This document shows, piece after piece, positions 11,109 to 43,814 of a DNA stretch of 64,000 bases. Below the pieces are notes generated by a model. The model searched no databases. It was not told the origin of the DNA and worked only from the letters and a program-made list of their open reading frames with translations. The stretch is taken from assembly GCF_019059575.1 (NCBI RefSeq), contig NW_024883388.1, positions 30,926 to 94,925 of the forward strand, read 5' to 3'. The translations under genes and the position numbers were made by a program. Numbering within the stretch: position 1 is the stretch's first letter; each line of letters begins with the position of its first letter. This DNA comes from Amphibalanus amphitrite (lineage: Eukaryota > Arthropoda > Thecostraca > Balanomorpha > Balanidae).

Positions 11109-11112
11109 ACCT

Positions 11113-11682: not shown

Positions 11683-11749
11683 AGGCCATTGTCCGACTGC
11701 TGTCAATTTAGCAGCAGTTTGATTATCCAACTACAGTTTGATATTCAGG

Positions 11750-12735
11750 GTGCGTCGATTTCGCCTAAACTTGCCCCAGGGACCAAGTCTGACACGCTGA
11801 GCACGAATCTCGTGTCAGAAATCCGCTATTCTCAACCGATCACCCAAATTTACCGTTTTTGAGTTCGTCCATCTACAGATTGACAAACTCCAGGGGCCAT
11901 CAATTTCGCCCAAAAATGGGTCTAAGGGACCAAGTGTGACACGCTGAGCACGAATCTGGTGTCAGAAATCCGCTATTTTCAACCGATCACCCAAATTTAC
12001 CGTTTTTGAGTTCGTCCATCTACAGATTGACAAACTCCAGGGGCCATCGATTTGGCTCAAAAATGGGTCTAGGGGACCAAGTCTGACACGCTGAGCACGA
12101 ATCTGGTGTCAGAAAGCAGCTATTCTCAACTGATCACCCAAATTTACCGTTTTTGAGTTCGTCCATCTACAGATTGACAAACTCCAGGGGCCATCAATTT
12201 CGCCCAAAAATGGGTCTAGGGGACCAAGTCTGACACGCTGAGCACGAATCTGGTGTCAGAAATCCGCTACTCTCAACCGATCACCCAAATTTACCGTTTT
12301 TGAGTTCGTCCATCTACAGATTGACAAACTCCAGGTGCCATCGATTTTGCCCAAAAATGAGTCTAAGGGACCAAGTCTGACACGCTGAACACGAATCAGG
12401 TGTCAGAAATCCGCTATTCTCAACCGATCACCCAAATTTACCGTTTTTGAGTTCGTCCATCTACAGATTGACAAACTCCAGGGGCCATCGATTTTGCCCA
12501 AAAACGAGTCTAGGGGACCAAGTCTGACACGCTGAGCACGAATCTGGTGTCAGAAATCCGCTATTCTCAACCGATCACCCAAATTTACCGTTTTTGAGTT
12601 CGTCCATCTACAGATTGACAAGCTCCAGGGCCCCATCAATTTCGCCCAAAAATGGGTCTAGGGGACCAAGTCTGACACGCTGAGCACGAATCTCGTGTCA
12701 GAAATCCGCTAGTCTCAACCGATCTCCCAAATTTA
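11750..12735 (+). repeat. Subterminal satellite, 147-bp unit, about 7 copies
   Basis: Each unit contains the landmarks GACCAAGTCTGACACGCTGA, CCGCTATTCTCAACCGATCA, CCGTTTTTGAGTTCGTCCAT and ACAAACTCCAGGGGCCAT. The period counted between GACC landmarks (11928, 12075, 12222) is 147 bp. Units differ by a few substitutions. There are no spacers of independent sequence, so this is a tandem satellite and not a CRISPR-type array. Confidence 0.95.
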
Positions 12736-12910
12736 AATTAGGGAGGCAAAGAGAAAAAGGCAAAGAGAAAAAGTGCTGCCGGTGGCGTCAATCGTCATGT
12801 AGCGCCATGACTTGAAACAGGGCCCGGTAGTATCAAAGAATAGATTCAGGGTAGTAGGGCGTATAGGTACATCAACATGCGTGATGCTAAATGCACTTAC
12901 ATACCTAAGT

Positions 12911-13013
12911 CCCAGTAAACATGCTGACGTCGGCCCGACGTCGGCAAACATCGGGGTGACGTCGGCATCTCGGCATCGGCATGCTGATGTTCGGAACACG
13001 CATTCTCGGGTAA
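12911..13013 (+). repeat. GACGTCGG-rich palindromic segment in the left arm
   Basis: Starts CCCAGTAAACATGCTGACGT and carries several GACGTCGG words. The same block lies inverted in the right arm at about 39668-39763, and a free-standing relative is at 15228-15467. It looks like an old MITE carried inside both arms. Confidence 0.75.
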
Positions 13014-13223
13014 ACACCACGGCTCAGCTATCTAATGTATTGATCTGCGCACATCGGCTCATTACACACTAATACCCTGACTGCCCATCAGGCCGGACCT
13101 CTTGTCCACTAGCCCATCCCAGAGCTCCTCTCGGCGAGCCAACCGCTCAGCCCCGAGGTCCCACCCGCCGAGCCACCCGCTCAGCTCTTATACGGCCTTG
13201 CCGCTCAGCGACTGCCGCCGCCG

Positions 13224-13544
13224 TTTGTTTGTTTGTTTGTTTTGTTGGGTTAGGCCCTTTCGGTCGACAAGACCATTGCAGAGCCGGAAGGATGATAGGA
13301 ATTAGGGGGAGACATTGGTCTGGGCAGGCATCCTAGTGAGTCGCCGGGGCTGAGCCCGTCCAAAGACAGGCCACCCAGCCCCAAGGCACTCACTGCACCC
13401 GGCTACGGGGTGCGCTCCCTCGGGAGCAGCGGTGCCGCTCCAAGGGAGCAGCCCGCATGAGATGAAGTTGCCTGTCCAGCCCGGAAGGGGGTGGCGGTGT
13501 GGAGGAGAAGGATTTCAGTATCCTGAGGATAGAAGCACGGATAG
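13224..13544 (-). mobile_element. SINE-like insertion in the left arm only
   Basis: The right arm has uninterrupted GACTGCCGCCGCCGGCGATG, whereas the left arm carries 321 extra bases between two CCGCCG words, giving a short target duplication. On the minus strand the insert ends in (AAAC)n and contains the motif GACCGAAAGGGCCTAACCCA just before the tail. A diverged relative lies at about 14610-15053. The insert postdates formation of the two arms. Confidence 0.8.
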
Positions 13545-13563
13545 CCGCCGGCGATGCGCCGCA

Positions 13564-13600
13564 TTATATAGGGGGGCTGGGCGCCCGCCGACCAATCAGC
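13564..13600 (-). promoter_or_regulatory. TATA and CCAAT boxes in the left arm, pointing outward
   Basis: On the minus strand ATTGG (13592-13596) lies about 20 bases upstream of CTATATAA (13564-13571), inside a GC-rich stretch. It would direct transcription towards the left outer end. The same pair is in the right arm, also pointing outward. It may be left over from a gypsy LTR promoter, since the decayed integrase tail lies next to it. Confidence 0.45.
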
Positions 13601-13799
13601 GGCCGCCACGTCACCTACGTCACCAGCCGGCCGGGACTGCAGGTTGCAGCGCCGGCGCACGCTACCGGCGGCCGATACGAACGGCCGCCGCTCCCCAACA
13701 CCCCCCCCCCCCCCCTACACAAGAGAGGTGTACGACAGCTCACATTTTACAAGTATGTATACACTACCGCGCCCGCGATTCGCGCAGTTCATGGACCCC

Positions 13800-14247
13800 C
13801 GCCTGACACTGTACAGGGGCAGCCGCGCCGCATTCGGTACGACGCGGGCGGGCCAAGGGCGGTAGGAGGCGGCTCAGGTCCCGCGCCGCGATCTGGGTGA
13901 TGCCGCGCGCACCATGCGGCGGCCACCTCTCCCGGCAAACCGCACGTCTGTCCATCATACGCTTTCAGGTGGTCGTGGTGCCACATCTTGGTTTTACCGA
14001 CGCCGTCCCGCACTCGGTAGGTGTCCCCTCTTCCTTCTTTTCTTCCGTGGCCCCACGGGCCCTTGTGCCGCAGGCCGAACTTTGGCTGCCCTCCAGCTGC
14101 CGCTCGGAAGTCGCGCTCGTTACCGGCTACGCGCTCGAAGGGGCGTGTGGCCGGCTTGTTCTGCGCCGGGACCCTTGGAGGTGGGGTGGGCCTTTTCCGC
14201 CTCACCACTCGATCATTCTGACCTCCAGTCCAGAGTCCAAGGCCCTG
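13800..14247 (-). pseudogene. Decayed gypsy-type integrase C-terminal tail (left arm copy)
   Basis: The minus frame contains GDTYRVRDGVGKTKMWHHDH followed by LKAYDG, which fits the end of Ty3/gypsy pol polyproteins ('H.DRLKPY'-type ending after the integrase chromodomain-like region). Upstream parts are shifted between frames, so the gene is broken. An inverted, nearly identical copy is in the right arm. It is a fragment only and cannot make an integrase. Confidence 0.6.
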
Positions 14248-14310
14248 TCCCACTTTCCCAGCATCGAGGTGTTGCAAGGTGTCTGATAGCTGAGGTGCTG
14301 TCGGGCGTGA

Positions 14311-14529
14311 TTGTGCAGTGGGCTCTCTTCTTACGCCTTCTGCTTGCCGCTCCACTCCACCGAACTAGCGTCCCCTGCGTCGCCGTCGACACCTCGACGG
14401 CTGGTGGTGCGTGCTTCCGCGGGCGACCCGACCTCGCAGCGGCTCGCGCTCTCCGCCTCCGACCCGTTTGAGGTCACCGTGTCCTCGACGCAGCCGCAGA
14501 CGTCGGACCGACATCGGCCGCTGTTTTGA
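14311..14529 (+). other. Short open frame just inside the left arm, possible host-derived 3' exon
   Basis: An open frame ends TQPQTSDRHRPLF followed by a stop, and AATATAAAATGC / CATAAAG words lie downstream. The segment is GC-rich and Ser/Thr/Arg-rich. It lies immediately inside the inner boundary of the left arm, as the Nup96-like exon does at the right arm. I recognise no domain. It could be captured coding sequence or chance. Confidence 0.2.
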
Positions 14530-14609
14530 CCGTTAAAATAATATAAAATGCATGTTTCATAAAGAGCTTCTGTATTCAAAATATCATCAGGGAAGTCAAA
14601 TCTTCCTCC

Positions 14610-15053
14610 ACGCCGCAACCCCCTGGTCCGGACTGGACGGGAAACTTTATCTCATTTGGGATTGCCCGTAAGCCGAGCTCGCCCGTAGCCGGGTGCGGTG
14701 AGTGCTTGGTGGCTGATCGGCCTATCCTTTGGTCAGGCTCAGCCCCAGCAACTCATGCAGGGCCAGGCCCAGTTCATATAGAAAGGCCAGTCGGCAAGTG
14801 TCACTTTGCCAAAAGTGCCACTTATCAAAGGGACACTTTTGGAAACGTTGGTACAGGTGTGTAAGGGTGGCTATATGAATCCATTTGTGGGGTCGCCCTT
14901 TCCAATAAGTGTCACGTAACAGCGATGGAGCTCTATAGGTATGAACTGGACCCAGGGCGCTCGCCAAGACCAATGTCTCCATCCTATCATCCTTCCGGCT
15001 CTGAAATGGTCTTGTCAGACCGAAAGGGCATCACCCAACAAAACAAACTAAAT
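14610..15053 (+). mobile_element. SINE-like element, relative of 13224-13544, with nested MITE
   Basis: Shares with the 13224-13544 insert the words CCGTAGCCGGGTGC, ATCCTTCCGGCTCTG and GGTCTTGTC..GACCGAAAGGGC, and ends CCCAACAAAACAAACT. It is split by a 179-bp element at 14770-14948. Confidence 0.65.
14770..14948. mobile_element. Small MITE (CAGTTCATA ends) nested in a SINE
   Basis: Begins CAGTTCATATAG and ends CTATAGGTATGAACTG, imperfect inverted ends with a small indel. No target duplication is certain. Internal GTGTCACTTTGCCAAAAGTG-type palindromic words recur. Confidence 0.5.
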
Positions 15054-15061
15054 TCGCTATC

Positions 15062-15135
15062 TGGCTGCGTAGTGTAGTGGCTAGCGCACTAGCCTCCCGA
15101 TCAAATCACACGGGGTTCGAATCCCGTCGCCGGCT
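15062..15135 (+). repeat. tRNA-derived sequence (SINE head or tRNA relic)
   Basis: It has an A-box-like TAGTGTAGTGGCTAGCGCAC and a perfect B box GGTTCGAATCCCG at the correct spacing. The acceptor stem does not pair cleanly and no CCA-proximal structure is seen, so I do not call a functional tRNA. A second B-box-bearing fragment follows at about 15187-15210, a partial direct duplicate. Confidence 0.6.
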
Positions 15136-15227
15136 GATGCTTTTGGCGCGTTGTCCCAGTAAACATGCCGACGTCGGCGACTTGGGGGCTCGAATCCCGC
15201 CGCCGGTTGATATTTTTGGCACGTTGT

Positions 15228-15467
15228 CCCAGTAAACATGCCGACGTCGGCCCCGTCGGTCCAACGACAAACGATCTCGTCAACCTCGGCAAACGACCTC
15301 GGCCCTACGTCGGCTCGACGTCGGCTGGACTTCGGCTGGACGTCACGTCGGTACATGCGGGCGTACCCGACGTCCAGCCGATGTCGGGCCGAGGTTGAAC
15401 CGACTTTGGGCCGACGTCGGGCCGAGCCTCGGCCCGACGTCGGGCCGACGTCGGCATGTTTACTGGG
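15228..15467. mobile_element. MITE rich in GACGTCGG words
   Basis: Starts CCCAGTAAACATGCCGACGT and ends with its inverse. The interior is almost entirely repeats of GACGTCGG / CCGACGTC, so it can fold at many registers. A second start of the same type lies at about 15154. Related blocks sit within both giant-element arms. Confidence 0.8.
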
Positions 15468-17685: not shown

Positions 17686-17772
17686 TATACGGCACGTTGA
17701 AAAGTTATGGGCCTGCAAATGAAAGTATGGCTGGCTGGGGTAATGCCGAAAACGTGCAATTACGCACGTTAA

Positions 17773-18660
17773 CCCTCGCATGTGTAGGGGGGGTCGGATG
17801 GACCCCCCATGGTTTTTCGCGAATAACTCGCGTAATAAGCGGCCGATCGCGACGAAACTTTCAGTACCCTCACATTGATCAATTTTACACCTCCCCTCAA
17901 ATTTTCATGACCCTGACCTTAATGACCTTTGACCTGTGACCTACTTTTCGAGACCATGTTTGGCCGGAATCGCGATTCGGCGTATGTCGGCTCGCATTAG
18001 CCGCGCGTTTGCAGTCTTATCGTGGTTTTAGGCGTTCAAACATGGGACATGATGTTGCTCCCATGCATTAGGGTGGGTGTCAATGTCACCGGAAGGTCAG
18101 GTCAGGTCATTGACCTTTTGTGACCTCGGGTGACCTCGGTTCACTTTTTCGAGCTGTACATGTTTCTAGGCTAGTTTTTGGAGCTGAATTCGAATTTAGC
18201 AACCATTTGAACATTTACTAAGTAGTTTTGGTGACTTCGTAACATGTTACGAAGCTGTCAGAGGCGGTTGACACGTACTACGAATACCCGTCACGACGCT
18301 TCTGGTTGACCTGACCTGACCTGACCCGACCTGGTCTAAATGCTTAAAGACATCATCTGTGATCAAAACTAACACGATATTCGTGATCAGCACCCCGAAA
18401 AACCCCTCAGCAGCCACACTTTACGACTTTCTAACAGGTCCCGATTTTCCCGACTTTGGGTCATTGACCTGACCTGGAAGGTCAACCAATGACCTAGGAC
18501 CTTAAAATTGGGTATCATCGGCTTCCTCTCGTCACGGGCAACACGCTCGTTTTTTCCGCGAAGCTCTAGCTCGATCAGGGGCCTAACGGCAAGAGGGGGT
18601 CCAACCGACCCCCCCCCCCCTACACATTAGAAGCTGGCAAACGCCGCACACATGCGAGGG
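17773..18660. mobile_element. piggyBac-like MITE 1 (TTAA flanked)
   Basis: Ends are CCCTCGCATGTG and its inverse, flanked by TTAA at 17769-17772 and 18661-18664. Just inside each end is a G-run/C-run hairpin. The centre contains TGACCT/AGGTCA words in clusters. TTAA duplication plus CCC-starting ends is the piggyBac signature. There is no coding frame. Confidence 0.85.
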
Positions 18661-19002
18661 TTAAAGCACGCTACGTGGACTTTACTGCCGTAGAATAGCA
18701 ACGCAAATTTTTAGTCACACAAATTACACTTTCAACCGACACAACGGCCTGTTACCTATAAGGAATTATTTACCTGGCATTTTCTTATTATATCACACAA
18801 TTTTAACTTCCAGTGTGCACCAAGCGTCCTCAAGCTCTTAAAACGCGTGTCAGCTTTGATAAATTCTGGATAAAGTTTGAGATAAAGTGGCAAAACATCA
18901 ATGTCGGCATTTCCCGTAGATCATTTCTCTCATTTTCGGCTTTCCCCGCAGTCCGGGGCAACGCCGAAAAAGTCACTTCTTTGATATTTTTAGTTTGTGC
19001 GC

Positions 19003-19507
19003 TTAAAGGGACTATCCCACCTTTAACATGGGGTTTGAGTTGAGATAGCCAAGTTTGCGGCGAGGTTCAGAAACCACTATCTATCTAGGTTGCAACCCCC
19101 GCGGCCTCTTGGTGTTGAAGAAATTCGTTCCCTTCATTTGAAAATGGGCCTTGTACAAGGCCCTATCTTCAACATGGAGCGACCGTTAGTGTGACGTCAC
19201 CTTGTTTAGTCATTCTGATTTAAATGGGTTTGTTCGTTGAAAAATCGCTTAAAACTTGGTCTGAACTTAGTTTTGGTGCCTACAGAGTAAAAAGAATCAG
19301 CTTTATGACAGTAATGTGGCCTGGGGAAGGAGGTAATTTTGGGCTGTGACGTCACATATTTGAAAGTTTGTGTTTGGAATATGGGAAGCCTAAGATGTTT
19401 AATGAAAAATAAATGCCAGAATCGTGTTCCTGGTCATCCAATCTATAAAGTCGGGCACAATTTAACTGGCTTTAACAACATTTTAGAAGGTGGGATAGTC
19501 CCTTTAA
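19003..19507. mobile_element. TTAA-flanked MITE with AAGGGACTATCCCACCTT ends
   Basis: Perfect 21-base inverted ends including the TTAA words (19003-19023 and 19487-19507). A second related end starts at once at 19504, so two elements abut. Relatives with similar ends are seen near 21960 and 48490. TTAA would fit Kolobok or piggyBac; the ends differ from those of the CCCTCGC family. Confidence 0.8.
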
Positions 19508-19544
19508 AGGGACAATCCCATCCAGAGTTCATAGTAGAGTTCAT

Positions 19545-19890
19545 TCAGAGTAGAGTTCATCCAGATCTAACGTCCGTGGAAGAATCCAAGCTCGTGGCTC
19601 TTTACCTTCATGGTTAATATCTGGTTTAAATGACGGGGAACCGCATAACGTCGCGAAAAAAACGAATTTCACAGTATGTGCAAAATGTAGAGCTCATCCA
19701 GCTCTAACGTCCGTGGAGGAATCCAAGCTCGTGGCTCTTTACTTTCATGGTTAATATCTGGTTTAAATGACGGGGAACCGCATAACGTCGCGAAAATAAA
19801 AACCCACGAATTCCAAAGTATGTGCAAAATGTAGAGCTCATCCAGATGTACCGTCCCTAGTGGATTCCAACCTCGTCGCTCTTTCACTTC
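19545..19890. repeat. Tandem repeat, about 140-bp unit, 3 copies
   Basis: GTAGAG(T/C)TCATCCAG starts units at about 19551, 19687 and 19831. Shared words are CTAACGTCCGTGGA, AAGCTCGTGGCTCTTTAC and GGGGAACCGCATAACGTCGC. Confidence 0.85.
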
Positions 19891-21058
19891 ATGGTTAAAA
19901 TTCTGTTCAACTAGTTAAAAATGTTTACATATGAAAACTATTATTTGAAATGCTTAGCAGTGGGTAGGGAATCGAGACGGGATGCCTCTTTTTGCGCGTA
20001 TGCAGAAGGGTATTTTCCGCACTCCGCAGCGTTCAAACTTCAAGACCGTCTTTCCGGTCCGTCAGTGTCACCACGTCAGGATGAATTGGAACCGAGTCAT
20101 CTCAGATTCGGCGGAGTCGATTGGTGACACCAGTCGCGTCTCCCTTGCAACATGAGCAGTGCCGATGCAATACCAGAAGTTGAGCTCTGCCATGCGCGTG
20201 CACTGCTCGTTGCAAGGGCCTGGCCGTTGTTGGCTGCTGCAGGTCTTTTGACGCTGATCGCTTCACTGGGTTGGAGTGCGCTATTTTGCTGTTGTAACCT
20301 GTTTGTTAAGCGTTCGAATATGGATCGATTCAGTGCATTCATACCACTTACAAAAAAGTGTTTCAATCAAGAATCATGGACGAAGTGATTTTTACTAAGG
20401 TAAGTGAAACACAAAGCTAATAGGCCTACCGTGATTCTTTTTTAGGGAGGGGGAGGGTAAAGCAATAAAAAGCATCCTATGGGAACCCGATAGGTACGGT
20501 GTTTATGTCCAGGTTAATGGGATACATTTACGTTTATGTGTTTTACGTTTTTTTTACTATGCTTGGGAGTTTTAGGTTCCAGTGACCTGAGGTCAGGTCA
20601 CAAGGTCACAAAAACCAGTACATTGTCAAAATTGCACTAAAAATGCACTATTTTTGTAATAAAAACTAGAGTTGTTCATCGATTTGATTCAAACTTGCAG
20701 GCTATGCTAAGGTCACCTAGTGCCATCTTATGCACCCCAGTTTTTCAAATTAGGTTGACCTGAAGTCATCTAGAGGTCATGACAAGTTCTAAGGAAATTT
20801 GCCCGAATCTGTAAAGATAAGAGATGTGTGCCCTATTTTAAAGTTTTTGTGTTATCCCTCCTTGGTGTTCACAAGGTGCAAGAACGCTAGGCTTGGGTCA
20901 ACTTAGGTCAACTAAGGTCAAACTACGTTTTTGCTAATAACTTGGCACACAATGAGGCTAGAGGTTCAACAATAGTGTCATTGTGTTTCTTGTGATCCGG
21001 CGGTTCAAATGATATGCAATATCGTGTCTTTTGAATAAGTTAAACTTAATTAATTACT
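19891..21058. other. Non-coding stretch with TGACCT-type words
   Basis: Short open frames at 19921-20388 show no recognised domain. From about 20580 the sequence contains repeated AGGTCA/TGACCT words outside any element whose ends I could delimit. Confidence 0.4.
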
Positions 21059-21062
21059 TTAA

Positions 21063-21955
21063 CCCTTGCCCGCATTGGTATTTTTCCAGCCGCGAACGAA
21101 TAAGGGGGATGGGGGTCCATTGGAACCCCCTGCCGTTTGGCCCCTAATCGAGCAAGAGCTTCGCGAAAAAAAACGAGCGTGTTGCCCGTGACGAGAGCAA
21201 GCCGATGATACCTAACTTTAAGGTCCTAGGTAATTGGTTAACCTTCCAGGTCATGTCAATGACCCAAAAGTCGGGAATATTGGGATCAGTTAGAACGTCG
21301 TAAGGTGTGGCTTCTATGGGGGTTTTCGGGGTTCTCATCACGAATATTATGTTAGTTTTGATCACAGATGATGTCTTCATGCATTAGGCCTGGTCGGGTC
21401 AGGTGAGGTCAGGTCAACTATTAGGGGTCCTGCCGGGTATTCGTAGTAGGTGTGAACTGTGAACCGCCTCTGACAGCTTCGTAACATGTTATGAAGGCAC
21501 CAAAAATACTTCGTAAATGTTCAAATGGTTGCCAAATTCGAATTCAGCTTTAAAAAAAGACTAGCGAAGAAACATGTAAAACTCGAAAAAGTGAACAGAG
21601 GTCATCAAAGGTCAATGACCTGACCTGACCTTCAGGTGACCTTGACACCCACCATAATGCATGGGACCAACTTCATATCACATGTTTGAACGCTTGAAAC
21701 CACGGAAAGACTGCAAACGCTCGGCTAATGCGAGCCGACATACGCCGAATCGCGATTTCGGCCAAACATGGTCTCGAAAAGTAGGTAACAGGTCAAAGGT
21801 CACTTGCGTCAGGGTCATGAAATTTTTAGGGTAGGTGTATAATTGATTAACGCGAGGGTACTAAAAGTTTGGTCGCGATCGGCCGCTTTTTACGCGTTAT
21901 TCGGGAAAAATCGGGGGGGGGGGTCTCTTCGACCCCCCCCCTATACGGGCGAGGG
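21063..21955. mobile_element. piggyBac-like MITE 2, inverted relative to MITE 1
   Basis: Starts CCCTTGCCCGC after TTAA and ends GGGCGAGGG before TTGA, a one-base decay of TTAA. It carries the same internal blocks as MITE 1 in reverse order, for example CGAACGTGTTGCCCGTGACGAG-like sequence near 21170-21200 and CATAATGCATGG near 21655. About 893 bp. Confidence 0.85.
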
Positions 21956-22132
21956 TTGAAGGGACCCTCCCACCTTAACATAAGATTTGAGTTGAGATTG
22001 CCATATTGTGGTCCGTGGCTCACAATCACCGGTTTTGACACTCGTAACCTCGAAAAATACCTTAAATCGAAAATATTTAATTTCAAAATTTGCAGGGTGT
22101 GACTAGCTTGGTTCCTATCTCTTAGCCATTAA

Positions 22133-27775: not shown

Positions 27776-28063
27776 TTTTGGCGATCAGGCGAACAGGTCC
27801 ATGGTGGACAGCCCAGATGGCTGCTGGATCTCAGTTTGGTGCGGTATGTGTGAAGACTGAAGGTTCTTTGCTGGTCAGGACTCAGGTCACGGCCATTAAA
27901 ACTATGTACATAGATGACCTCTGTCGGCTTTTTAAGTTTTACAACTTCTTAGGGTGCTGTTCTAGGGGGTCTGAATTCGAATTTGACACCTTATTGAACA
28001 TTTGACTACTACTTTTGCTGCCTACACAGCATACATCGTAGCAGTCGGTGGTGGTAATAGATA

Positions 28064-28165
28064 ATTATGAATCGTGTTGTCCTGCAGTCCCCTGGCGCCA
28101 CCGCCTCGGAACCTCACCCAGGACCCGGTCTTGCTCCGTATCTGGATCCTGATCAGGGCTGCGGA
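28064..28165 (+). pseudogene. Truncated duplicate of the start of the giant transposase frame
   Basis: The sequence from TAATTATGAATC to about 28165 matches 29375-29460, the start of the 2,545-codon frame. Encoded starts are MNRVVLQSPGATASEPHPGP here and MNLAILQSSGATASAPDSGP there. The copy runs into a short TTAA-type element with a G/C-run hairpin (28166-28261) and ends in it. It is either a broken second gene copy or a duplicated 5' end. Confidence 0.75.
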
Positions 28166-29304: not shown

Positions 29305-29380
29305 TTAACGCGTGCACGTCCCATGATTATGTTCAATGGAGCGTCGTTCGCTGTTACATTCTAGGTGATACACGCTAATT

Positions 29381-32300: not shown

Positions 32301-35300
32301 TGTCATCACCAGGACAGTCACCCGAACAGTCACCATGCCGGTCGTCACCAGGACAGTCACCATGCCGGTCATCACCCGGACAGTCGCCATGCCAGTCATC
32401 ACCGATACCGTCACCATGCCAGTCATCACCGATACCGTCACCATGCCAGTCATCACCGATACCGTCACCATGCCAGTCATTACCGAGACCGTCACCATGC
32501 TGGTCATCACCAGGACAGTCACCGGGACAGTCACCATGCCAGTCATCACTGGGACCGTCATCATGCCGGTCATCACCGGGATCGTCACTGGGACAGTCAC
32601 CAGAACCGTCACGGCGACCGTCACCATGCCGGGCATCACCAGGACAGTCACCATGCCGGTCATCACCGGGACAGTCACCATGCCAGTCATCACCAGGACC
32701 GTCACCGGGACCGTCACCATGCCGGGCATCACCAGTGAAGACTGCATGCGGAGCGAAGAAGCGGTCTGTACCGTCCCCATGCAAAGCGAAGAAGCGGCCT
32801 GCACCGTCCCCAAGCGGAGCGAAGAAGCGGCCTGCACCGTCCCCATGCAGAACGAAGAAGCGGCCGGCACCGTCCCCAAGCGGAGCGAAGAAGCGGCCCG
32901 CACTGTCTCCTTGTCAATCGGATGCTTCACCTCCACGGAAGGCTGGAGAGGTAGGAGCGAATTTTACATTCAAACTGACAGCTGAAGAAACGGCAGAGAT
33001 ATTTTCCAGTCATAAACTGAAGAAACGTTGGTCTGAAAGGGTTTTCCTGGTCGGCAAAGACGTTGAAAGCAGAGGTGCCTACGATGTCCGGAGAGAGCGG
33101 CTCCAAAACGCACCGGACACGGAGCTGACCGAGGGGAATATCACCGAGGTCAGGGCATCGCCTGGACCGTCGCCGGGACCGTCACCATGCCGTTCATCAC
33201 CAGGACAGTCACCGGGACAGTCACCATGCCAGTCATCACCGGGACCGTCACCATGCCGTTCATCACCAGGACAGTCACCGGGACCGTTACCATGCCGTTC
33301 ATCACCAGGACAGTCACCATGCCGGTCATCACCCGGACAGTCACCATGCCAGTCATCACCGATACCGTCATCATGCCAGTCATCACCTAGACCGTCACCG
33401 GGACCGTCACCATGCCGGTCATCACCGGGACACCCACCATGCCGTTCATCACCAGGAAAGTCACTAGGACCGTCACCATGCATGTCGTCACCAGGACAGT
33501 CACCCGGATCATCACCATGCCCGGCATCACCGGGACAGGCTGTGTGCGGAGCAAAGAAGCGGCCTGCACCGTCCCCATGCAGAGAGAAGAAACGGCTTGC
33601 ACCGTCCCCATGCGGAGAGAAGAAGCGGCCTGCACCGTCCCCAAGCGGAGAGAAGAAACGGCCTGCACCGTCCCCAAGCGGAGAGAAGAAGCGGCCTGCA
33701 CCGTCCCCATGCGGAGAGAAGAAGCGGCCTGCACCGTCCCCAAGCGGAGCGAAGAAGCGGCCTGCACCGTCCCCATGCGGAGAGAAGAAACGGCCCGCAC
33801 TGTCTCCGTGTCAATCGGACGCTTCACCTGCACGGGAGGCTGGAGAGGTAGGAGCGAATTTTACATTCGAACTGACAGCTGAGGACACGGCAGAGATATT
33901 TTCCGGTCATAAACTGAAGAAACATTGGCCTGATAGGTTTTTCCGTGCTTTCACCCGCTGCAATAAAACGACGAAATGTATCCTGGCAGTGCGATACCGG
34001 CACCTCAAGAAGATGTCGAGCAGGAAAAACACAGCTTTCTTCAGATGTCATGCCCAGTGTCGGCTGCCAAATTGCCATAAGTACGTCTTCACCATTCAGA
34101 AGAGACCTGGAAAGCATGGTGCTGTTGTTGAAGGCAAGATCCTGAGTGGATCTAATGATGCCCACAAGGTATACCATGCTCATCGAAACTTGAGGGGAGA
34201 ACGGCGCTTCCTGGTCGGCGAAGATGTCGAAAGCAGAGGTGCCTATGATGTCCGGAGAGAGCTGCTCCAAGACGCACCGGACACGGAGCTGGCTGAGGGG
34301 AATATCACCGAGGCACCGCCGGCGAAAATATTGCGACAGGCTGCGTATGAACGAAGACAGAAAGAGAGGTATTCTCAAGACTGGGCTGTGGATGTGCAGT
34401 GCCGGGCAGAAGACTCAGCTGCCAGTGACTCTTCCAGTACTATTTTGTTTGGAGGCATCCATTTCATCGCGAGACACCCGCTTTCGGTTCACATGTTCGG
34501 CGAGCATTTCATGAGGAAATACCACAACCGCCCAACGACGCTTCACATTGATGCCACCGGGGGCGTGACGAAACAGATCGGTAAAAAGCGCCCGTATTTG
34601 TACGCTATTGTAGCGGAAGGCACCAATGAGAACGACAACAGCTACCCGTTTGCGCACCTGATTGCCGAAGATCATACGGTTCCAACAATTCAACATTTTC
34701 TCACACACCTAGCACGCGAGTACAGGACTGTCACAAACGACACGTTTCAGCCGCCGCGTGTGGTACTGGATTTCAGCTGGGCTCTACTTCATGCAGTTGT
34801 TCTCAGCATCATGAAGATGAGTTTGCTGGCGTACCTGGAGCGGTGCTGGGACTCTAGCACCAGCAATCCCCCGGCGACGACTATCAGCCTCTGCGGCAGC
34901 CATCTCATGCATCAGTTCGCACACAGTCTCACTGATTGTGGCGTAAAGAAAGATTGCCGTGGTGGATACATGTGGCTTTTTGCACGCATGCAGAAGGCGA
35001 CCTCCTTGGAGCAGCTGGACGGCGAGTTCAAGACCCTGTGTACATTGGCGATGAAAAAGACAGAGGTTACAGACCATGCCGGCATCCGGGGAGATATGGC
35101 GGAGGAAACTGAGGAGCAGACTGGAAAGATCCTGAATCCCAGTGAAGATGAGGACGAGGACAAGGTGCCACAGGAAGTCAAAGGTACCAAAAAACAGACA
35201 TACAGGGCGCTGTCACCTTACGGGCGACACTTCGAAAGGGTGGTGGAATCGGTCAAAACTTCAACATACGAAGACGTTCATGAAGTAACAAACCCGTTTT

Positions 35301-37018
35301 ATGCACCGAAGGTCGTGGAAAGTCTGATGAAGTCACTGCTGCCACTGGCACCCCTTTGGAGCCAGCTACTACCGGGTCTGTCCGGGGTCACGACAAATGC
35401 GTCTGTCGAAGTTTACTTCAACGTCGTCAAGCATCGTCTCCTCCGAGGCCGAACCAAATTGCATCCGTGCGAGTTCATCCGACAGCTCTTGAATGATACC
35501 AACAGCCGCGTGAAGGCGGATCGAATCCCAGCCAAACCTGCACCACGAGGGAGGAAGCGACTGAAGAAAGACCGCAAACCTCCCAGCAAATCGACGCAGC
35601 ACGCCCATAAGACTGTACCGGAAGATCCGGACGTCCAAGAAGAGTTCTGGTCCAAAAAGAATCGGGCTGCGTCAAGGCCATCGTGGTACGCGCGAAGCAA
35701 GCCACCGGACTGTCTCAAACAGGCAGCGTGTAGCAGCAAGGCACCACCGATGCTGGCGCGTGATATCCCAGAGCAGGCGCAGCCGACATCAGCTAGAGAC
35801 GGCAGCAAGGCACCAGCCGCGACGCTGGCGCGCGATATCCAGGCGCAGCCGACATCAGCTAGAGACGGCAGCAAGGCACCAGCCGCGACACTGGCGCGCG
35901 ATATCCAGGCGCAGCCGACACCAGCTAGAGACGGCAGCAAGTCACCAGCCACGACGCTGGCGCGCGATGTCCAGGCGCAGCCGACATCAGCTAGAGATGG
36001 CAGCAAGGCACCAGCCGCGACGCTGGCGCGCGATATCCAGGCGCAGCCGACATCAGCTAGAGATGGCAGCAAGGCACCAGCCGCGACGCTGGCGCGCGAT
36101 ATCCAGGCGCAGCCGACATCAGCTAGAGATGGCAGCAAGGCACCAGCCGCGACACTGGCGCGCGATATACCAGAGCAAGCGCGGCCGACATCAAGAGGAG
36201 AAGCTAAGGCTGGACAAAAAGAGCCTAAGCTGGCGCTGGACCCGAACTCCGTCGGCACCAGTCTCTGCGAACAGTCTGAGAGATCATTGAGCCCCTACCA
36301 GTGGCTAGACGACGAAGCCATTGACAGGTTTTGTCTGGCGCTCTCTGCGTCCACTGACGGCAGAGTGGTCCATTTTACGACTACTTGGTACGAATGTATG
36401 ATTGGCGGAAGGACATCTGCAATGCTGCGGCACCATTTGGCATCTCGGTCAGCCCAGCATGCAACCATCTGGCTGCTTCCCTACAACAGGAACGGCAACC
36501 ACTGGGCGCTCTACATCGTCGCCCACAAGTCCCAAGCTATCATTCACCTGGACTCACTGGGGCTCCAGCCCAACGGTCTCGATGTGGCCCACGTCCAGAA
36601 ACTGATAGAAGCAGCCCATCTGTTGATGCCTGATCCAGAATTTGACTGGAGCCGATGGTCACTCTGTGTGCCAGTGGAGTATCCCATCCAAGGTGACTCC
36701 TACTCCTGCGGCACGCGGGTCTGTCACGCGTCTGAAGCGGTGTCTACTGGTGGGGTGCGACTGTTCAACGACGCCCTGATGCGTAAGGAGATTCTCCACA
36801 AGATCAAAAGCACACAGGTTAGACCATCAACGATAGGTACTGTGTCATTACATGCTTGGTTTTTGTTCATGCGCTTTTTAAGTGAAAACTCAAGTTATCC
36901 TCTATTTTTAGTATTAAGTTACCCTCTATCCTCTATTATTTTCTGCGAGGGCACAAGAAAAGTGACAAGCCTGGAACATTTGCTGTTATGGGGTGACATC
37001 TCCGAATGTAAGCAGTAA
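29381..37018 (+). CDS. Giant modular transposase-like protein: zinc-finger modules, DDE core, Ulp1 protease
   Basis: A 2,545-codon uninterrupted frame. Residues 1-205 are Ser/Pro/Lys repeats of the AKKRPAPSPSG type, like SPKK DNA-binding tails. Five modules follow (about 207-287, 465-635, 755-925, 1175-1260, 1475-1643), each with FTFKLTAEDTAEIF and LLQDAPDTEL, separated by SPGPSPCRS repeats. Modules 2, 3 and 5 hold a Cys/His core (FFRCHAQCRLPECHQ) of WRKY/GCM1-like appearance; modules 1 and 4 lack exactly that core. The core region 1644-2046 shows LHIDATGG (Asp1724), VVLDFSWALL (Asp1797), CGSH (Cys1838, His1841) and NASVEVYF (Glu2010), a DDE set with the CxxH insert typical of MULE/hAT/Kolobok-type transposases. 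Residues 2125-2268 are 23-residue repeats. Residues 2304-2473 are an Ulp1/C48 fold with His2374, Asp2391, Gln2437, Cys2443. The last 70 residues may be intron read-through, since a GT donor follows codon KSTQ near 36820. Assignment to a named superfamily is inference. Confidence 0.8.
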   Translation: MNLAILQSSGATASAPDSGPGPAPDQSPGPSSCQSSPGPSPCPASPGQAACRAKKRDAPSPCRAKKRPAPSPCRAEKRPARSTCTAKKQSAPSPSGAKKRPARSTCRAKKRPAPSPFKGKKRPAPSPSGAKKRPARSTCRAKKLPAPSPSGAKKRPAPSPCGEKKRPAPSPSGAKKRPAPSPSGEKKRPAPSPSGEKKRPALSPCQSDASPAREAGEVGANFTFELTAEDTAEIFSSHKLKKRWSDRFFLVGEDVESKGAYDVRREQLQKAPDTEVNEGNITEVRASPGPSPGPSPCRSSPGQSPGQSPCQSSPGPSPCQSSPGQSLGPSPCMSSPGQSPCRSSPGQSPGQSPCQSSPGPSPCRSSPGQSPCRSSPGQSPGLSPCRSSPGQSPGPLPCQSSPGQSPGQSPCQSSPGQAQAACGAKKRDAPSPCRTKNRPAPSPCGAKKRPAPSPCREKKRPAQSPCQSDASPAREAGEVGANFTFKLTAEDTAEIFSGHKLKKRWSDRFFRAFTSCNRTTKCILAVRYRHLKKMSSSRKNTAFFRCHAQCRLPECHQYVFRIQKNPGKYGAVVEGKILSGSANAHKVYHAHRNLRGERRVLVGEDVDSRGAYDVRRELLQDAPDTELAWENTTEDRASPGPSPGPSPCRSSPGQLPGLSPCQSSPGPSPCRSSPGQAVCGVKKRDAPSPSGAKKPPARSTCRAKKRPAPSPCREKKRPAPSPCGEKKRPAPSPSGAKKRPAPSPSGEKKRPALSPCQSDASPAREAGEERANFTFKLTAEDTAEIFSGHKLKKRWSERFFRAFTRCNRTMKCILAVRYRHLKKMSSSRKNTAFFRCHAQCRLPNCHKYVFTIQKNPGKHDAVVEGKILSGSNDAHKAYHAHRNLRGERHVLVGEDVDSRGALDVRRELLQDAPDTELAWENTTEDRASPGPSPGPSPCRSSPGQLPGLSPCQSSPGPSPCQSSPGQSLGPSPCMSSPGQSPEQSPCRSSPGQSPCRSSPGQSPCQSSPIPSPCQSSPIPSPCQSSPIPSPCQSLPRPSPCWSSPGQSPGQSPCQSSLGPSSCRSSPGSSLGQSPEPSRRPSPCRASPGQSPCRSSPGQSPCQSSPGPSPGPSPCRASPVKTACGAKKRSVPSPCKAKKRPAPSPSGAKKRPAPSPCRTKKRPAPSPSGAKKRPALSPCQSDASPPRKAGEVGANFTFKLTAEETAEIFSSHKLKKRWSERVFLVGKDVESRGAYDVRRERLQNAPDTELTEGNITEVRASPGPSPGPSPCRSSPGQSPGQSPCQSSPGPSPCRSSPGQSPGPLPCRSSPGQSPCRSSPGQSPCQSSPIPSSCQSSPRPSPGPSPCRSSPGHPPCRSSPGKSLGPSPCMSSPGQSPGSSPCPASPGQAVCGAKKRPAPSPCREKKRLAPSPCGEKKRPAPSPSGEKKRPAPSPSGEKKRPAPSPCGEKKRPAPSPSGAKKRPAPSPCGEKKRPALSPCQSDASPAREAGEVGANFTFELTAEDTAEIFSGHKLKKHWPDRFFRAFTRCNKTTKCILAVRYRHLKKMSSRKNTAFFRCHAQCRLPNCHKYVFTIQKRPGKHGAVVEGKILSGSNDAHKVYHAHRNLRGERRFLVGEDVESRGAYDVRRELLQDAPDTELAEGNITEAPPAKILRQAAYERRQKERYSQDWAVDVQCRAEDSAASDSSSTILFGGIHFIARHPLSVHMFGEHFMRKYHNRPTTLHIDATGGVTKQIGKKRPYLYAIVAEGTNENDNSYPFAHLIAEDHTVPTIQHFLTHLAREYRTVTNDTFQPPRVVLDFSWALLHAVVLSIMKMSLLAYLERCWDSSTSNPPATTISLCGSHLMHQFAHSLTDCGVKKDCRGGYMWLFARMQKATSLEQLDGEFKTLCTLAMKKTEVTDHAGIRGDMAEETEEQTGKILNPSEDEDEDKVPQEVKGTKKQTYRALSPYGRHFERVVESVKTSTYEDVHEVTNPFYAPKVVESLMKSLLPLAPLWSQLLPGLSGVTTNASVEVYFNVVKHRLLRGRTKLHPCEFIRQLLNDTNSRVKADRIPAKPAPRGRKRLKKDRKPPSKSTQHAHKTVPEDPDVQEEFWSKKNRAASRPSWYARSKPPDCLKQAACSSKAPPMLARDIPEQAQPTSARDGSKAPAATLARDIQAQPTSARDGSKAPAATLARDIQAQPTPARDGSKSPATTLARDVQAQPTSARDGSKAPAATLARDIQAQPTSARDGSKAPAATLARDIQAQPTSARDGSKAPAATLARDIPEQARPTSRGEAKAGQKEPKLALDPNSVGTSLCEQSERSLSPYQWLDDEAIDRFCLALSASTDGRVVHFTTTWYECMIGGRTSAMLRHHLASRSAQHATIWLLPYNRNGNHWALYIVAHKSQAIIHLDSLGLQPNGLDVAHVQKLIEAAHLLMPDPEFDWSRWSLCVPVEYPIQGDSYSCGTRVCHASEAVSTGGVRLFNDALMRKEILHKIKSTQVRPSTIGTVSLHAWFLFMRFLSENSSYPLFLVLSYPLSSIIFCEGTRKVTSLEHLLLWGDISECKQ
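35755..36185 (+). repeat. Coding minisatellite, 69-bp unit, about 6 copies
   Basis: In-frame repeats with the words GCGCGCGATATCCAGGCGCA and AGCTAGAGACGGCAGCAAGG, encoding TLARDIQAQPTSARDGSKAP. It links the transposase core to the protease. Copies are nearly identical, so recent amplification is likely. Confidence 0.9.
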
Positions 37019-37115
37019 GACATGTGATTCGTTTTGCCGTTTGTTTAACAGCGCAAGAACAAAGTATTGGAGGAAAAATGTAACATATGCTGTGTCGTAA
37101 TTGCTTTGCTACAGG

Positions 37116-37477: not shown

Positions 37478-38480
<1,003 letters not shown>

Positions 38481-38613
38481 CGGAATAAATATGACAGACC
38501 ATCTTCATATTCATCTTCATGTTATCGGGCAAGAGGCAAGGTGTCCTGAAGCACGATATGTCTCCGCACTCGTCCCGTTCTGCTGAGGCTGTCTGTGTGC
38601 TTCCTCTCGTCAG

Positions 38614-38739
38614 GTGTGGGAGGCGGTGGCTGTGGCCCAGGAGCACCGCGACCTCCGTCTGAGCCTGCTGCTGACACAGGTCATCGGCTCACATGAGGCG
38701 CGCCAGCTCGTCAGGAGCCAGCTGGGAAACTGGCGGCAA
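38614..38739 (+). CDS. Host-like exon, possible Nup96 (Nup98-96) segment
   Basis: The acceptor TTCCTCTCGTCAG and donor CAA/GTGAGC bound exactly 42 codons in phase 0. The peptide contains VAQEHRDLRLSLLLTQVIGS and ends RQLVRSQLGNWRQ, a helical pattern that recalls the Nup96 domain of Nup98-96 (DHRLALLLSQ..GS...R.L...QL..W). The identification is from memory of the family and unsure. It sits 18 bases from the inner edge of the right arm, inside the putative giant element. It is therefore either a captured exon or evidence that the right arm inserted into a host gene. No neighbouring exons of the same gene were found. Confidence 0.45.
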
Positions 38740-38756
38740 GTGAGCAGGACGGACCA

Positions 38757-39060
38757 GGGCCTTGGACTCTGGACTGGAGGTCAGAATGATCGAGTGGTGA
38801 GGCGGAAAAGGCCCACCCCACCTCCAAGGGTCCCGGCGCAGAACAAGCCGGCCACACGCCCCTTCGAGCGCGTAGCCGGTAACGAGCGCGACTTCCGAGC
38901 GGCAGCTGGAGGGCAGCCAAAGTTCGGCCTGCGGCACAAGGGCCCGTGGGGCCACGGAAGAAAAGAAGGAAGAGGGGACACCTACCGAGTGCGGGACGGC
39001 GTCGGTAAAACCAAGATGTGGCACCACGACCACCTGAAAGCGTATGATGGACAGACGTGC
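38757..39060 (+). pseudogene. Decayed gypsy-type integrase C-terminal tail (right arm copy)
   Basis: Same fragment as in the left arm, with the residues GKTKMWHHDHLKAYDG near 39001-39051. Frames shift upstream, so it is non-functional. Confidence 0.6.
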
Positions 39061-39400
39061 GGTTTGCCGGGAGAGGTGGCCGCCGCGTGGTGCGCGCGGC
39101 ATCACCCAGATCGCGGCGCGGGACCTGAGCCGCCTCCTACCGCCCTTGGCCCGCCCGCGTCGTACCGAATGCGGCGCGGCTGCCCCTGTACAGTGTCAGG
39201 CGGGGGTCCATGAACTGCGCGAATCGCGGGCGCGGTAGTGTATACATACTTGTAAAATGTGAGCTGTCGTACACCTCTCTTGTGTAGGGGGGGGGGGTGT
39301 GTTGGGGAGCGGCGGCCGTTCGTATCGGCCGCCGGTAGCGTGCGCCGGCGCTGCAACCTGCAGTCCCGGCCGGCTGGTGACGTAGGTGACGTGGCGGCCG

Positions 39401-39436
39401 CTGATTGGTCGGCGGGCGCCCAGCCCCCCTATATAA
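39401..39436 (+). promoter_or_regulatory. CCAAT/TATA pair in the right arm, pointing outward towards AGA
   Basis: ATTGG (39404-39408) and CTATATAA (39429-39436) lie in a GC-rich context on the plus strand. Transcription from here would run through the satellite array towards the AGA gene. No start site can be seen directly. Confidence 0.45.
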
Positions 39437-39954
39437 TGCGGCGCATCGCCGGCGGCGGCAGTCGCTGAGCGGCAAGGCCGTATAAGAGCTGAGCGGGTGG
39501 CTCGGCGGGTGGGACCTCGGGGCTGAGCGGTTGGCTCGCCGAGAGGAGCTCTGGGATGGGCTAGTGGACAAGAGGTCCGGCCTGATTGGCAGTCAGGGTA
39601 TTAGTGTGTAATGAGCCGATGTGCGCAGATCAATACATTAGATAGCTGAGCCGTGGTGTTTACCCGAGAATGCGTGTTCCGAACATCAGCATGCCGATGC
39701 CGAGATGCCGACGTCACCCCGATGTTTGCCGACGTCGGGCCGACGTCAGCATGTTTACTGGGACTTAGGTATGTAAGTGCATTTAGCATCACGCATGTTG
39801 ATGTACCTATACCTACGCCCTACTACCCTGAATCTATTCTTTGATACTACCGGGCCCTGTTTCAAGTCATGGCGCTACATGACGGTTGACGCCACCGGCA
39901 GCACTTTTTCTCTTTGCCTTTTTCTCTTTGCCTCCCTAATTTAAATTTGGGAGA

Positions 39955-42900
39955 TCGGTTGAGACTAGCGGATTTCTGACACGAGATTCGTGCTCAGCGT
40001 GTCAGACTTGGTCCCCTAGACCCATTTTTGGCCGAAATTTATGGGGCCCTGGAGCTTGTCAATCTGTAGATGGACGAACTCAAAAACGGTAAATTTGGGT
40101 GATCGGTTGAGAATAGCGGATTTCTGACACCAGATTCGTGCTCAGCGTGTCAGACTTGGTCCCCTAGACCCATTTTTGGTCCAAATCGATGGCCCCTGGA
40201 GTTTGTCAATCTGTAGATGGACGAACTCAAAAACGGTAAATTTGGGTGATCGGTTGAGAATAGCGGATTTCTGACACCAGATTCGTGCTCAGCGTGTCAC
40301 ACTTGGTCCCCTAGACCCATTTTTGGGCAAAATCGATGGCCCCTGGAGTTTGTCAATCTGTAGATGGACGAACTCAAAAACGGTAAATTTGGGTGATCAG
40401 TTGAGAATAGCGGATTTCTGACACCAGATTCGTGCTCAGCGTGTCACACTTGGTCCCCTAGACTCGTTTTTGGGCAAAATCGATGGCCCCTGGAGTTTGT
40501 CAATCTGTAGATGGACGAACTCAAAAACGGTAAATTTGGGTGATCGGTTGAGAATAGCGGATTTCTGACACCTGATTCGTGTTTAGCGTGTCAGACTTGG
40601 TCCCCTAGACTCATTTTTGGGCAAAATCGATGGCACCTGGAGTTTGTCAATCTGTAGATGGACGAACTCAAAAACGGTAAATTTGGGTGATCGGTTGAGA
40701 ATAGCGGATTTCTGACACCAGATTCGTGCTCAGCGTGTCACACTTGGTCCCCTAGACCCATTTTTGGGCCAAATTGATGGCCCCTGGAGTTTGTCAATCT
40801 GTAGATGGACGAACTCAAAAAACGGTAAATTTGGGTGATCAGTTGAGAATAGCGGATTTCTGACACCATATTCGTGCTCAGCGTGTCAGAGTTGGTCCCC
40901 TAGACCCATTTTTGGGCCAAATCGATGGCCCCTGGAGTTTGTCAATCTGTAGATGGACGAACTCAAAAACGGTAAATTTGGGTGATCGGTTGAAAATAGC
41001 GGATTTCTGACACCAGATTCGTGCTCAGCGTGTCAGACATGGTCCCCTAGACCCATTTTTGGGCCAAATTGATGGCCCCTGGAGTTTGTCAATCTGTAGA
41101 TGGACGAACTCAAAAACGGTAGGTAAATTTGGGTGATCGGTCGAGAATAGCGGATTTCTGACACCAGATTCGTGCTCAGCGTGTCAGACTTGGTCCCCTA
41201 GACCCATTTTTGGGCGAAATCGATGGCCTCTGGAGTTTGTCAATCTGTAGATGGACGAACTCAAAAACGGTAAATTTGGGTGATCGTTTGAGAAAAGCGG
41301 ATTTCTGACACCAGATTCGTGCTCAGCGTGTCACACTTGGTCCCCTAGACCCATTTTTGGTCCAAATCGATGGCCCCTGGAGTTTGTCAATCTGTAGATG
41401 GACGAACTCAAAAACGGTAAATTTGGGTGATCGGTTGAGAATAGCAGATTTCTGACACCAGATTCGTGCTCAGCGTGTCACACTTGGTCCCCTAGACCCA
41501 TTTTTGGGCGAAATCGATGGCCCCTGGAGTTTGTCAATCTGTAGATGGACGAACTCAAAAACGGTAAATTTGGGTGATCAGTTGAGAATAGCGGATTTCT
41601 GACACCAGATTCGTGCTCAGCGTGTCACACTTGGTCCCCTAGACCCATTTTTGGGCGAAATCGATGGCACCTGGAGTTTGTCAATCTGTAGATGGACGAA
41701 CTCAAAAACGGTAAATTTGGGTGATCGTTTGAGAAAAGCGGATTTCTGACACCAGATTCGTGCTCAGCGTGTCAGATTTGATCCCCTAGACCCATTTTTG
41801 GGCCAAATCAATGGCCCCTGGAGTTTGTCAATCTGTAGATGGACGAACTCAAAAACGGTAAATTTGGGTGATCGGTTGAGAATAGCGGATTTCTGACACC
41901 AGATTCGTGCTCAGCGTGTCACACTTGGTCCCCTAGACCCATTTTTGGGCGAAATCGATGGCCCCTGGAGTTTGTCAATCTGTAGATGGACGAACTCAAA
42001 AACGGTAAATTTGGGTGATCAGTTGAGAATAGCGGATTTCTGACACCAGATTCGTGCTCAGCGTGTCACACTTGGTCCCCTAGACCCATTTTTGGGCGAA
42101 ATCGATGGCCCCTGGAGTTTGTCAATCTGTAAATGGACGAACTCAAAAACGGTAAATTTGGGTGATCAGTTGAGAATAGCGGATTTCTGACACCATATTC
42201 GTGCTCAGCGTGTCAGACATGGTCCCCTAGACCGATTTTTGGGCCAAATCGATGGCCCCTGGAGTTTGTCAATCTGTAGATGGACGAACTCAAAAACGGT
42301 AAATTTGGGTGATCAGTTGAGAATAGCGGATTTCTGACACCAGATTCGTGCTCAGCGTGTCACACTTGGTCCCCGAGACCCATTTTTGGGCGAAATCGAT
42401 GGCCCCTGGAGTTTGTCAATCTGTAGATGGACGAACTCAAAAACGGTAAATTTGGGTGATCGGTCGAGAAAAGCGGATTTCTGACACCAGATTCGTGCTC
42501 AGCGTGTCAGACTTGGTCCCCTAGACCCATTTTTGGTCCAAATCGATGGCCCCTGGAGTTTGTCAATCTGTAGATGGACGAACTCAAAAACGGTAAATTT
42601 GGGTGATCGGTTGAGAATAGCGGATTTCTGACACCAGATTCGTGCTCAGCGTGTCACACTTGGTCCCCTAGACCCATTTTTGGGCGAAATCGATGGCCCC
42701 TGGAGTTTGTCAATCTGTAGATGGACGAACTCAAAAACGGTAAATTTGGGTGATCAGTTGAGAATAGCGGATTTCTGACACCAGATTCGTGCTCAGCGTG
42801 TCACACTTGGTCCCCTAGACCCATTTTTGGGCGAAATCGATGGCCCCTGGAGTTTGTCAATCTGTAGATGGACGAACTCAAAAACGGTAAATTTGGGTGA

Positions 42901-43400
42901 TCGGTCGAGAAAAGCGGATTTCTGACACCAGATTCGTGCTCAGCGTGTCAGACATGGTCCCCTAGACCCATTTTTGGGCCAAATCGATGGCCCCTGGAGT
43001 TTGTCAATCTGTAGATGGACGAACTCAAAAACGGTAAATTTGGGTGATCGGTTGAGAATAGCGGATTTCTGACACCAGATTCGTGCTCAGCGTGTCACAC
43101 TTGGTCCCCTAGACCCATTTTTGGGCGAAATCGATGGCCCCTGGAGTTTGTCAATCTGTAGATGGACGAACTCAAAAACGGTAAATTTAAGTGATCGGTC
43201 GAGAAAAGCGGATTTCTGACACCAGATTCGTGCTCAGCGTGTCAGACTTGGTCCCCTAGACCCATTTTTGGTCCAAATCGATGGCCCCTGGAGTTTGTCA
43301 ATCTGTAGATGGACGAACTCAAAAACGGTAAATTTGGGTGATCGGTTGAGAATAGCGGATTTCTGACACCAGATTCGTGCTCAGTGTGTCAGACTTGGTC
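39955..43400 (-). repeat. Subterminal satellite, 147-bp unit, about 24 copies
   Basis: TAGCGGATTTCTGACACC recurs at 39966, 40114, 40261 and 40408, and so on to 43353. The spacing is 147 bp, with rare indels such as GGTAGGTAAATTT near 41121. Variants alternate (GATCGGTTGAG / GATCAGTTGAG; TCAGACTTGG / TCACACTTGG), suggesting amplification of multi-unit blocks. Confidence 0.95.
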
Positions 43401-43487
43401 CCTGGGGCAAGTTTGGGCGAAATCGGCGCACCCTGAATATCAAACTGTAGTTGGATAATCAAAGTGCTGCTAAATTGACAGCAGTCG

Positions 43488-43814
43488 CATTTCATTCGAT
43501 CTTTGTCGTTCATTTGCCAAGGCCATTGTTTCAAAGCGGATATCAGAAAAACAAATTTACCCTAAAATGACGTCAAACTACATGTTTGATGATTTCTAAA
43601 GTAGTGTTTAACAAATGTATCAATTTTGTAGCTCTTGTTGACACCAATTAATTAGTATAAAAATCAAAATTGCACAGAAAGGTTGAAAAGATTGTTCCTC
43701 AAAGAAATAGACGTCATTTTTCAAATTTTTGATAAAACATTTTCCGGTGTAGCTGGCGCAGATAAGACATTTGTCATTTGTTTACTTTTTGTATCATCTC
43801 GGAAATTTTTAGTT
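43488..43814. promoter_or_regulatory. Short interval between giant element and AGA start codon
   Basis: About 330 bases, AT-rich, with no clear TATA element. It must hold whatever remains of the native AGA promoter and 5' UTR. It includes the candidate 10-bp target duplicate AGGCCATTGT at 43520-43529. Confidence 0.4.

Follow-up and report, generated by a model that had tools for sequence, protein, structure and literature searches.

In the FB-NOF element of Drosophila and the FARE element of Arabidopsis, foldback arms with tandem repeats surround a gene, and it is by this description only, not by sequence, that we liken to them a 32-kb structure in the barnacle Amphibalanus amphitrite, found within a 64-kb stretch of DNA (the window; contig C1891 of the 807.55-Mb, 2,644-contig assembly searched). 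Here two inverted, satellite-bearing arms enclose a gene for a giant protein that joins a transposase domain to an Ulp1 protease, and the whole is, in our judgment, probably a gene-bearing foldback Mutator (MULE) DNA transposon. The original prediction, made from the window's letters, had offered it as a possibly undescribed system, which is too strong, since Mutator/foldback elements with satellites and Mutator elements with Ulp1 have each been published (PMC3169594, PMC4079207, PMC2836005, PMC2528002; statements on described systems, here and below, relate to the accessible parts of the cited papers). No report of this particular element was found in the searched literature, outside which most subscription papers and Repbase Reports fall.

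Among described systems, Rehavkus, a Repbase group of MULE relatives from arthropods and annelids, is listed with a PHD finger, terminal inverted repeats (TIRs) 26-400 bp long and, ahead of the 3' TIR, a minisatellite (PMC6446971); the barnacle structure is like it in its arthropod host, single long frame, minisatellite and 9-bp target duplication (the last seen here in the arm family), but has arms of 2.6 and 4.7 kb with satellites in both. Pfam scans of the window protein and its relatives gave no match to a PHD finger, the mark of Rehavkus, and because finger type and arm length differ, the element is not filed under that name; it stands near Rehavkus/NOF in organisation and is not a proven member. 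Tm1, a Mutator/Foldback element of root-knot nematodes, likewise has composite TIRs of tandem repeats, mostly 9-bp duplications, a single gene-bearing copy beside many non-autonomous ones, and a finger together with a MULE domain, whereas its repeats are of about 14 bp, its transposase has 496 aa and a FLYWCH match, and the term Ulp1 is absent from the text of the paper, in which FARE is cited as a MULE-type foldback element (PMC3169594). The Tetris foldback element of Drosophila virilis resembles the barnacle structure in the tandem repeats of its TIRs (about 220 bp, thought to derive from the outer TIR, a possible origin here as well) and in its 8-10 bp duplications, and differs in that a transposase-coding copy was not found for it (PMC4079207). 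From the other side, Mutator elements bearing Ulp1 occur in hydra, lancelet, Arabidopsis, maize, rice and melon (PMC2836005), and share an Ulp1 domain inside a Mutator element with the present case, whereas the accessible parts of the two papers concerned do not mention foldback satellite arms for them (PMC2836005, PMC2528002). KI-MULE is non-TIR and carries Ulp1 in reverse orientation, unlike the one continuous frame of the window element, and in other plants Ulp1 lies in both orientations in Mutator elements (PMC2528002).

The arms of the 32-kb structure, delimited by inverted-repeat search, self-comparison and terminus alignment, measure 2,555 bp on the left (11696..14250, forward strand) and 4,735 bp on the right (38751..43485, reverse strand), in agreement with the 2.55 and 4.73 kb and the same ordered content first claimed for them. 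From outside inwards, both consist of the terminus ACTGCTGTCAATTTAGCA, a 147-bp satellite and an inner core. The common terminus begins ACTGCTG at 11696 and has its outer limit on the right at 43485; in the left arm, terminus and subterminal part together occupy about 83 bp before the satellite array. Tandem-repeat search counted 6.5 satellite copies on the left (11779..12735, forward) and 23.5 on the right (39942..43402, reverse), and long inverted arms with tandem repeats of differing copy number are a foldback-type feature. In the window self-comparison the outer inverted blocks (11694-12735 / 42447-43487) are 95.2% identical and the inner ones (13544-14250 / 38751-39456), which adjoin the inner border, 99.3% identical over 708 bp; by eye, in the printed sequences, the left-arm stretch between the two matched blocks is co-linear with the right arm except for one insertion. 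A putative SINE-like insertion with a TTTG-repeat end, seen by eye, is confined to the left arm (13262..13543, approximate limits). The inner core (12740..14250, forward; common to the right arm by self-comparison, with 12863-13260 matched by eye) is almost absent, from 13001 on, in the fetched loci of the hairpin elements described below, so that its presence in both window arms ties these arms to each other. Left-right satellite identity within the window (0.913, ungapped) is the highest of 41 comparisons, narrowly, the next being 0.909. The 20-mer originally proposed to bound the arms occurs twice in the window, inverted, against a mean expectation of 0 in 100 shuffles; its shared part stands as the element end, and its first two letters (CG) do not, being flank that varies between copies.

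The open frame between the arms (29369-37018) extends over 2,549 aa from stop to stop with its first Met at residue 5, and the transposase-Ulp1 gene read from that Met (29381..37018, forward; 2,545 aa) comprises five modules, a DDE domain, a minisatellite linker and an Ulp1 protease, as recognised from the frame list, Pfam, profile search and motif alignment. The DDE region (34541..35410, forward; alignment with relatives, motif positions) contains LHIDATG, LDFSWA, CGSH and TTNASVE, and the set D1724, D1797, CxxH and E2010, counted from the first Met, falls where it had been predicted in this 7.6-kb frame. Its D, D, C and H are invariant in all six aligned rows (P0004 and P0006 are one sequence there), and the Glu is plain in four, P0003 and P0006 being broken at that point. 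A CxxH between the second Asp and the Glu is what we take to be the motif order of the MULE superfamily. It is on this motif order that the MULE assignment rests, together with weak Pfam MULE matches in two relatives (P0002 and P0010; 15.6 and 15.7 bits, below the cut-off of 27.6) and one database name, that of P0006, which begins 'MULE transposase domain'. An in-frame 66-bp minisatellite (35774..36173, forward; tandem-repeat search) links the DDE part to the Ulp1/C48 protease domain (36284..36800, forward, approximate limits; Pfam, profile search, motif positions), whose His, Asp and Cys motifs are presumably the catalytic residues. This protease, also anticipated in the same frame, is matched by Pfam (Peptidase_C48) at E 5.7e-9 and in a profile search against SENP1 structures at 3e-16, which places a C48 domain inside a transposase frame, as in Ulp1-bearing transposons. 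N-terminal to the catalytic part, three of the five repeated modules hold a complete Cys/His finger and two do not; no Pfam model names the finger modules, and our guess from their residues is that they are FLYWCH/WRKY-GCM-like. The ratio of nonsynonymous to synonymous rates (Nei-Gojobori) among the three finger copies is 0.45, 0.38 and 0.77, and constraint on them would seem at most mild. The first part of the transposase frame (29376-29456) is repeated with 81% identity at 28062-28142, 1.3 kb upstream of the frame.

The terminus is not peculiar to the window: an assembly search returned 54 matches at two mismatches or fewer on 29 contigs, those on C131 and C1162 not running on into arm sequence and those on C192 being of a diverged type. 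Fifteen hairpin elements fetched whole are 3.2-6.2 kb long, most of them largely two facing satellite arms and some with a middle segment. Of 21 pairs outside the window that have these termini, 16 are flanked by exact, adjacent 9-bp target duplications (the hairpin pairs on C279 and C1502 stand outside this count); the pair on C632 has a 9-bp duplication with three extra bases on the left, and those on C1648, C88, C381 and C788 have none. The arm family thus falls within the 8-11 bp given for Mutator-type target duplications, 9 bp being a size expected of a Mutator-type reaction (PMC6446971), and small hairpins are the non-autonomous members expected in such a family. In several of them (e.g., L031 and L049) the terminus variants GCAG.. 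and GCAC.. occur one per end, as if the ends kept separate identities; other hairpin elements have the same variant at both ends.

A protein search of the assembly, in which 45 of 4,756 first-look candidates were scored and counts are accordingly lower bounds, yielded at least 54 protein-matched stretches on at least 27 contigs. Outside the window, identity in the high-scoring matches is 42-48%, and several of these sit in open frames 900-1,900 aa long. A broken copy with internal stops (C861:87908-96086) reaches 63-76% in two stretches, of 89 and 133 residues; among the matches listed, the closest intact copy is therefore the window's own, with a decayed nearer relative on C861. Other copies bounded by the same terminus with the same protein inside had been anticipated, and none appeared: among the matches listed (27 protein and 29 terminus contigs), both coincide on the window's contig only, none of the 26 other protein contigs having the ACTGCTG terminus. 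The chance of such an enclosure by accident is about 0.1% by a simple estimate (some 27 elements, each 32 kb long, in 807 Mb). Of the 11 proteins returned by a second protein search, 6 were new, all of them 'ena' entries without a name. On contigs C1072, C571 and C1209 a gene that is nearly the same in all three, encoding a protein 43% identical to the window's, sits between inverted arms of a 71-bp satellite, again with coding minisatellites and a (CT)n tract; on C1209 the outer arm ends are 97.6% identical over 743 bp, and the mirror symmetry extends as far as 40261 on one side and 56654 on the other, which gives a unit of 16.4 kb. The plan of satellite arms around a MULE-Ulp1 gene thus recurs in one diverged relative.

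That arms and gene moved as one unit is suggested by the common inner core, by the plan of that relative and by the low chance of enclosing the only intact close copy found. Against this stand observations at the ends, in the relatives and in the protein itself. No 9-bp duplication adjoins the window ends (cattgtccg versus cgcatttca). A homologue of the right flank on contig C176, 91-92% identical, runs with one mismatch through the 35 bp beside the right terminus; these being flank on C176, the border between host and element lies at 43485/43486, and the limits 11693 and 43519 of the original prediction give way to termini at 11696 and 43485. The same 35 bp rule out GGCCATTGT (11684-11692, 43521-43529), which its limits imply was the intended target duplication, and, because C176 holds the intervening bases as flank, the offset repeat AGGCCATTGT is not a footprint either; at least 10 bases are common to 71 of 20,000 random flank pairs. 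The empty site proposed at 11692/43520 is contradicted by C176 on its right side, and a 25-mer of the joined flanks had no match in the assembly at three mismatches or fewer, a result of little weight, since this query joined the flanks at a mistaken border. Leftward of 43485/43486, the next 2 kb or so of C176 give no BLAST match to the window (one common 16-mer, with 13185), its left flank included; one of the two, C176 or the window, has undergone a change at this junction. Ends of this kind are also what would be seen if recombination or inversion between hairpins had fused two different foldback insertions, with the gene enclosed by accident, and the four of 21 other pairs without a duplication indicate that altered ends are not rare. 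We consider such a composite unlikely, if still to be taken seriously, since a 99.3% identical core nearly absent from the hairpin loci is shared by both arms, a diverged relative has the same plan, and the only intact close copy (among the matches listed) would have had to be enclosed by chance. For a single transposon, the lack of a common footprint implies that one end was probably rearranged after insertion; the ends as they stand suggest that one was rearranged or is of separate origin.

In the relatives, no 9-bp duplication bounds the arms of the C1209 unit; past one end the sequence of the three copies continues alike, and with this common flank they represent haplotypes or a segmental duplication, counted as one case. 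For two further near-identical gene copies, on C414 and C823, the 9.9 kb retrieved did not reveal both arms: on C414 the satellite stops after a short stretch, and on C823 the match stops before the satellite. As for the protein, no scanned sequence reached the Pfam MULE cut-off, the window protein was not listed at all, and the predicted structure was poor, with a mean confidence (pLDDT) of 37.9, too low for a fold search. Outer arms standing alone with their own duplications, a finding foreseen as contrary to the original prediction, were indeed frequent (16 of 21 pairs), although such non-autonomous hairpins are to be expected here. No fetched hairpin locus contained pieces of the gene, loci fetched for one end reaching only 1.5 kb inwards. 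This last point, the other nested repeats in the interior and the 15 kb between the gene and the left arm would also fit a transposase gene belonging to a separate, smaller element that is nested with others in an old large hairpin and does not mobilise it; we regard this as improbable, as no separate inverted ends lie directly around the gene (among the 25 longest of 89 inverted pairs, and by self-comparison at 150 bp or more) and the relative's gene sits between its own arms. Satellites of up to 3.5 kb and near-identical stretches on several contigs could have led the assembler to join arms from different places, yet a single contig carries both inner cores and the gene between the two satellites, and the right junction falls exactly at the family terminus, which leaves an assembly artefact very improbable. 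The fold-back transposon originally proposed therefore stands as regards the arms, the 9-bp duplications of the family, the MULE-like DDE and Ulp1 domains and the plan in a relative, and fails as regards a duplication around the 32-kb copy.

If the structure is such a transposon, the giant protein would bind the arms through its repeated finger modules, and the satellite units may have arisen by repeated copying of a subterminal binding region. The DDE domain would cut at the ACTGCTG ends and join them to a staggered target, giving the 9-bp duplication, a cut-and-paste reaction suggested by the hairpin duplications and the catalytic motifs. The Ulp1 domain would probably remove SUMO from the transposase or from host repair factors, and an active role of Ulp1 in transposition has been discussed as a possibility (PMC2836005). 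The small hairpin elements are probably mobilised in trans by this protein or one closely related to it, and the 32-kb copy has probably grown by nested insertions and taken up at least one host exon fragment. The left satellite unit does resemble the adjoining subterminal sequence (score 35 over 57 columns, against 25 or less in 500 shuffles); because the aligned stretch borders the array and keeps its phase, the array may have grown out of the subterminal region or the likeness may be that of a decayed edge unit. A similar match between satellite and terminus in the 71-bp family also sits at the array edge and is no better evidence. With these edge positions, and with C414 and C823 not showing both arms, we have slightly lowered our already small confidence in a wider and doubtful proposal, that barnacle MULE-Ulp1 elements form a diverse foldback lineage, each with its own satellite arms from amplified subterminal sites, matching finger amplification, growth beyond 30 kb and host cargo.

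The interest of the locus lies in its providing a gene-bearing candidate whose termini are those of the hairpins, and hence a candidate source of the enzyme missing for them, and less in its being a new system. It is common for a foldback element to be represented by non-coding hairpins only, its enzyme missing, as is the case for Tetris (PMC4079207). Together with the 71-bp-satellite relative, the locus opens to test the idea that arm satellites are transposase-binding sites in many copies, and the question of how mobile DNA gives rise to tandem satellites. If the whole structure moved as a single unit, its 32 kb would be well above the sizes cited for Pack-MULEs, none of which exceeds 7 kb in the study concerned (PMC6431247).

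Other features of the interior include a segment directly inside the left arm (14499..15467) that, by sequence comparison, lies whole or in part between the arms of four hairpin elements as well (L031, L032, L040 and L047), a nested element with its own inverted ends of about 860 bp, 85.6% identical (17771..21957; self-comparison), and a (TC)n microsatellite of about 344 units (37501..38187; tandem-repeat search). Abutting the right arm on its inner side is a truncated Nup96 exon (38605..38746, forward; Pfam scan and sequence comparison), probably captured host sequence. A tRNA scan and an Rfam scan at gathering thresholds gave no match. Outside the structure, a dispersed 1.5-kb repeat happens to flank it as an inverted pair (9588-11112 / 54968-56495, 95.7% identical); its inclusion in the element was considered and rejected, a copy lying in the flank of hairpin L029. 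An asparaginase-2 gene (Pfam) begins about 0.4 kb beyond the right end, with a first exon that by eye falls near 43.87 kb, and a UMP1 exon lies farther out on the opposite strand. Comparison with C176 (43488-44700 versus C176:831635-834826) shows an interruption of about 2 kb early in the asparaginase-2 gene, at window position about 43,920 near the end of the presumed first exon, which represents an insertion or a length difference between haplotypes. Two slightly overlapping reverse-transcriptase frames (RVT_1, Pfam; 49803-50816, reverse, and 50765-52081, forward) are probably retroelement remnants, a direct repeat of 1.7 kb (52459-54173 / 56598-58300) is 89% identical, and a weak Rft-1 match below the Pfam cut-off (63026-63445, reverse) perhaps marks a host gene exon.

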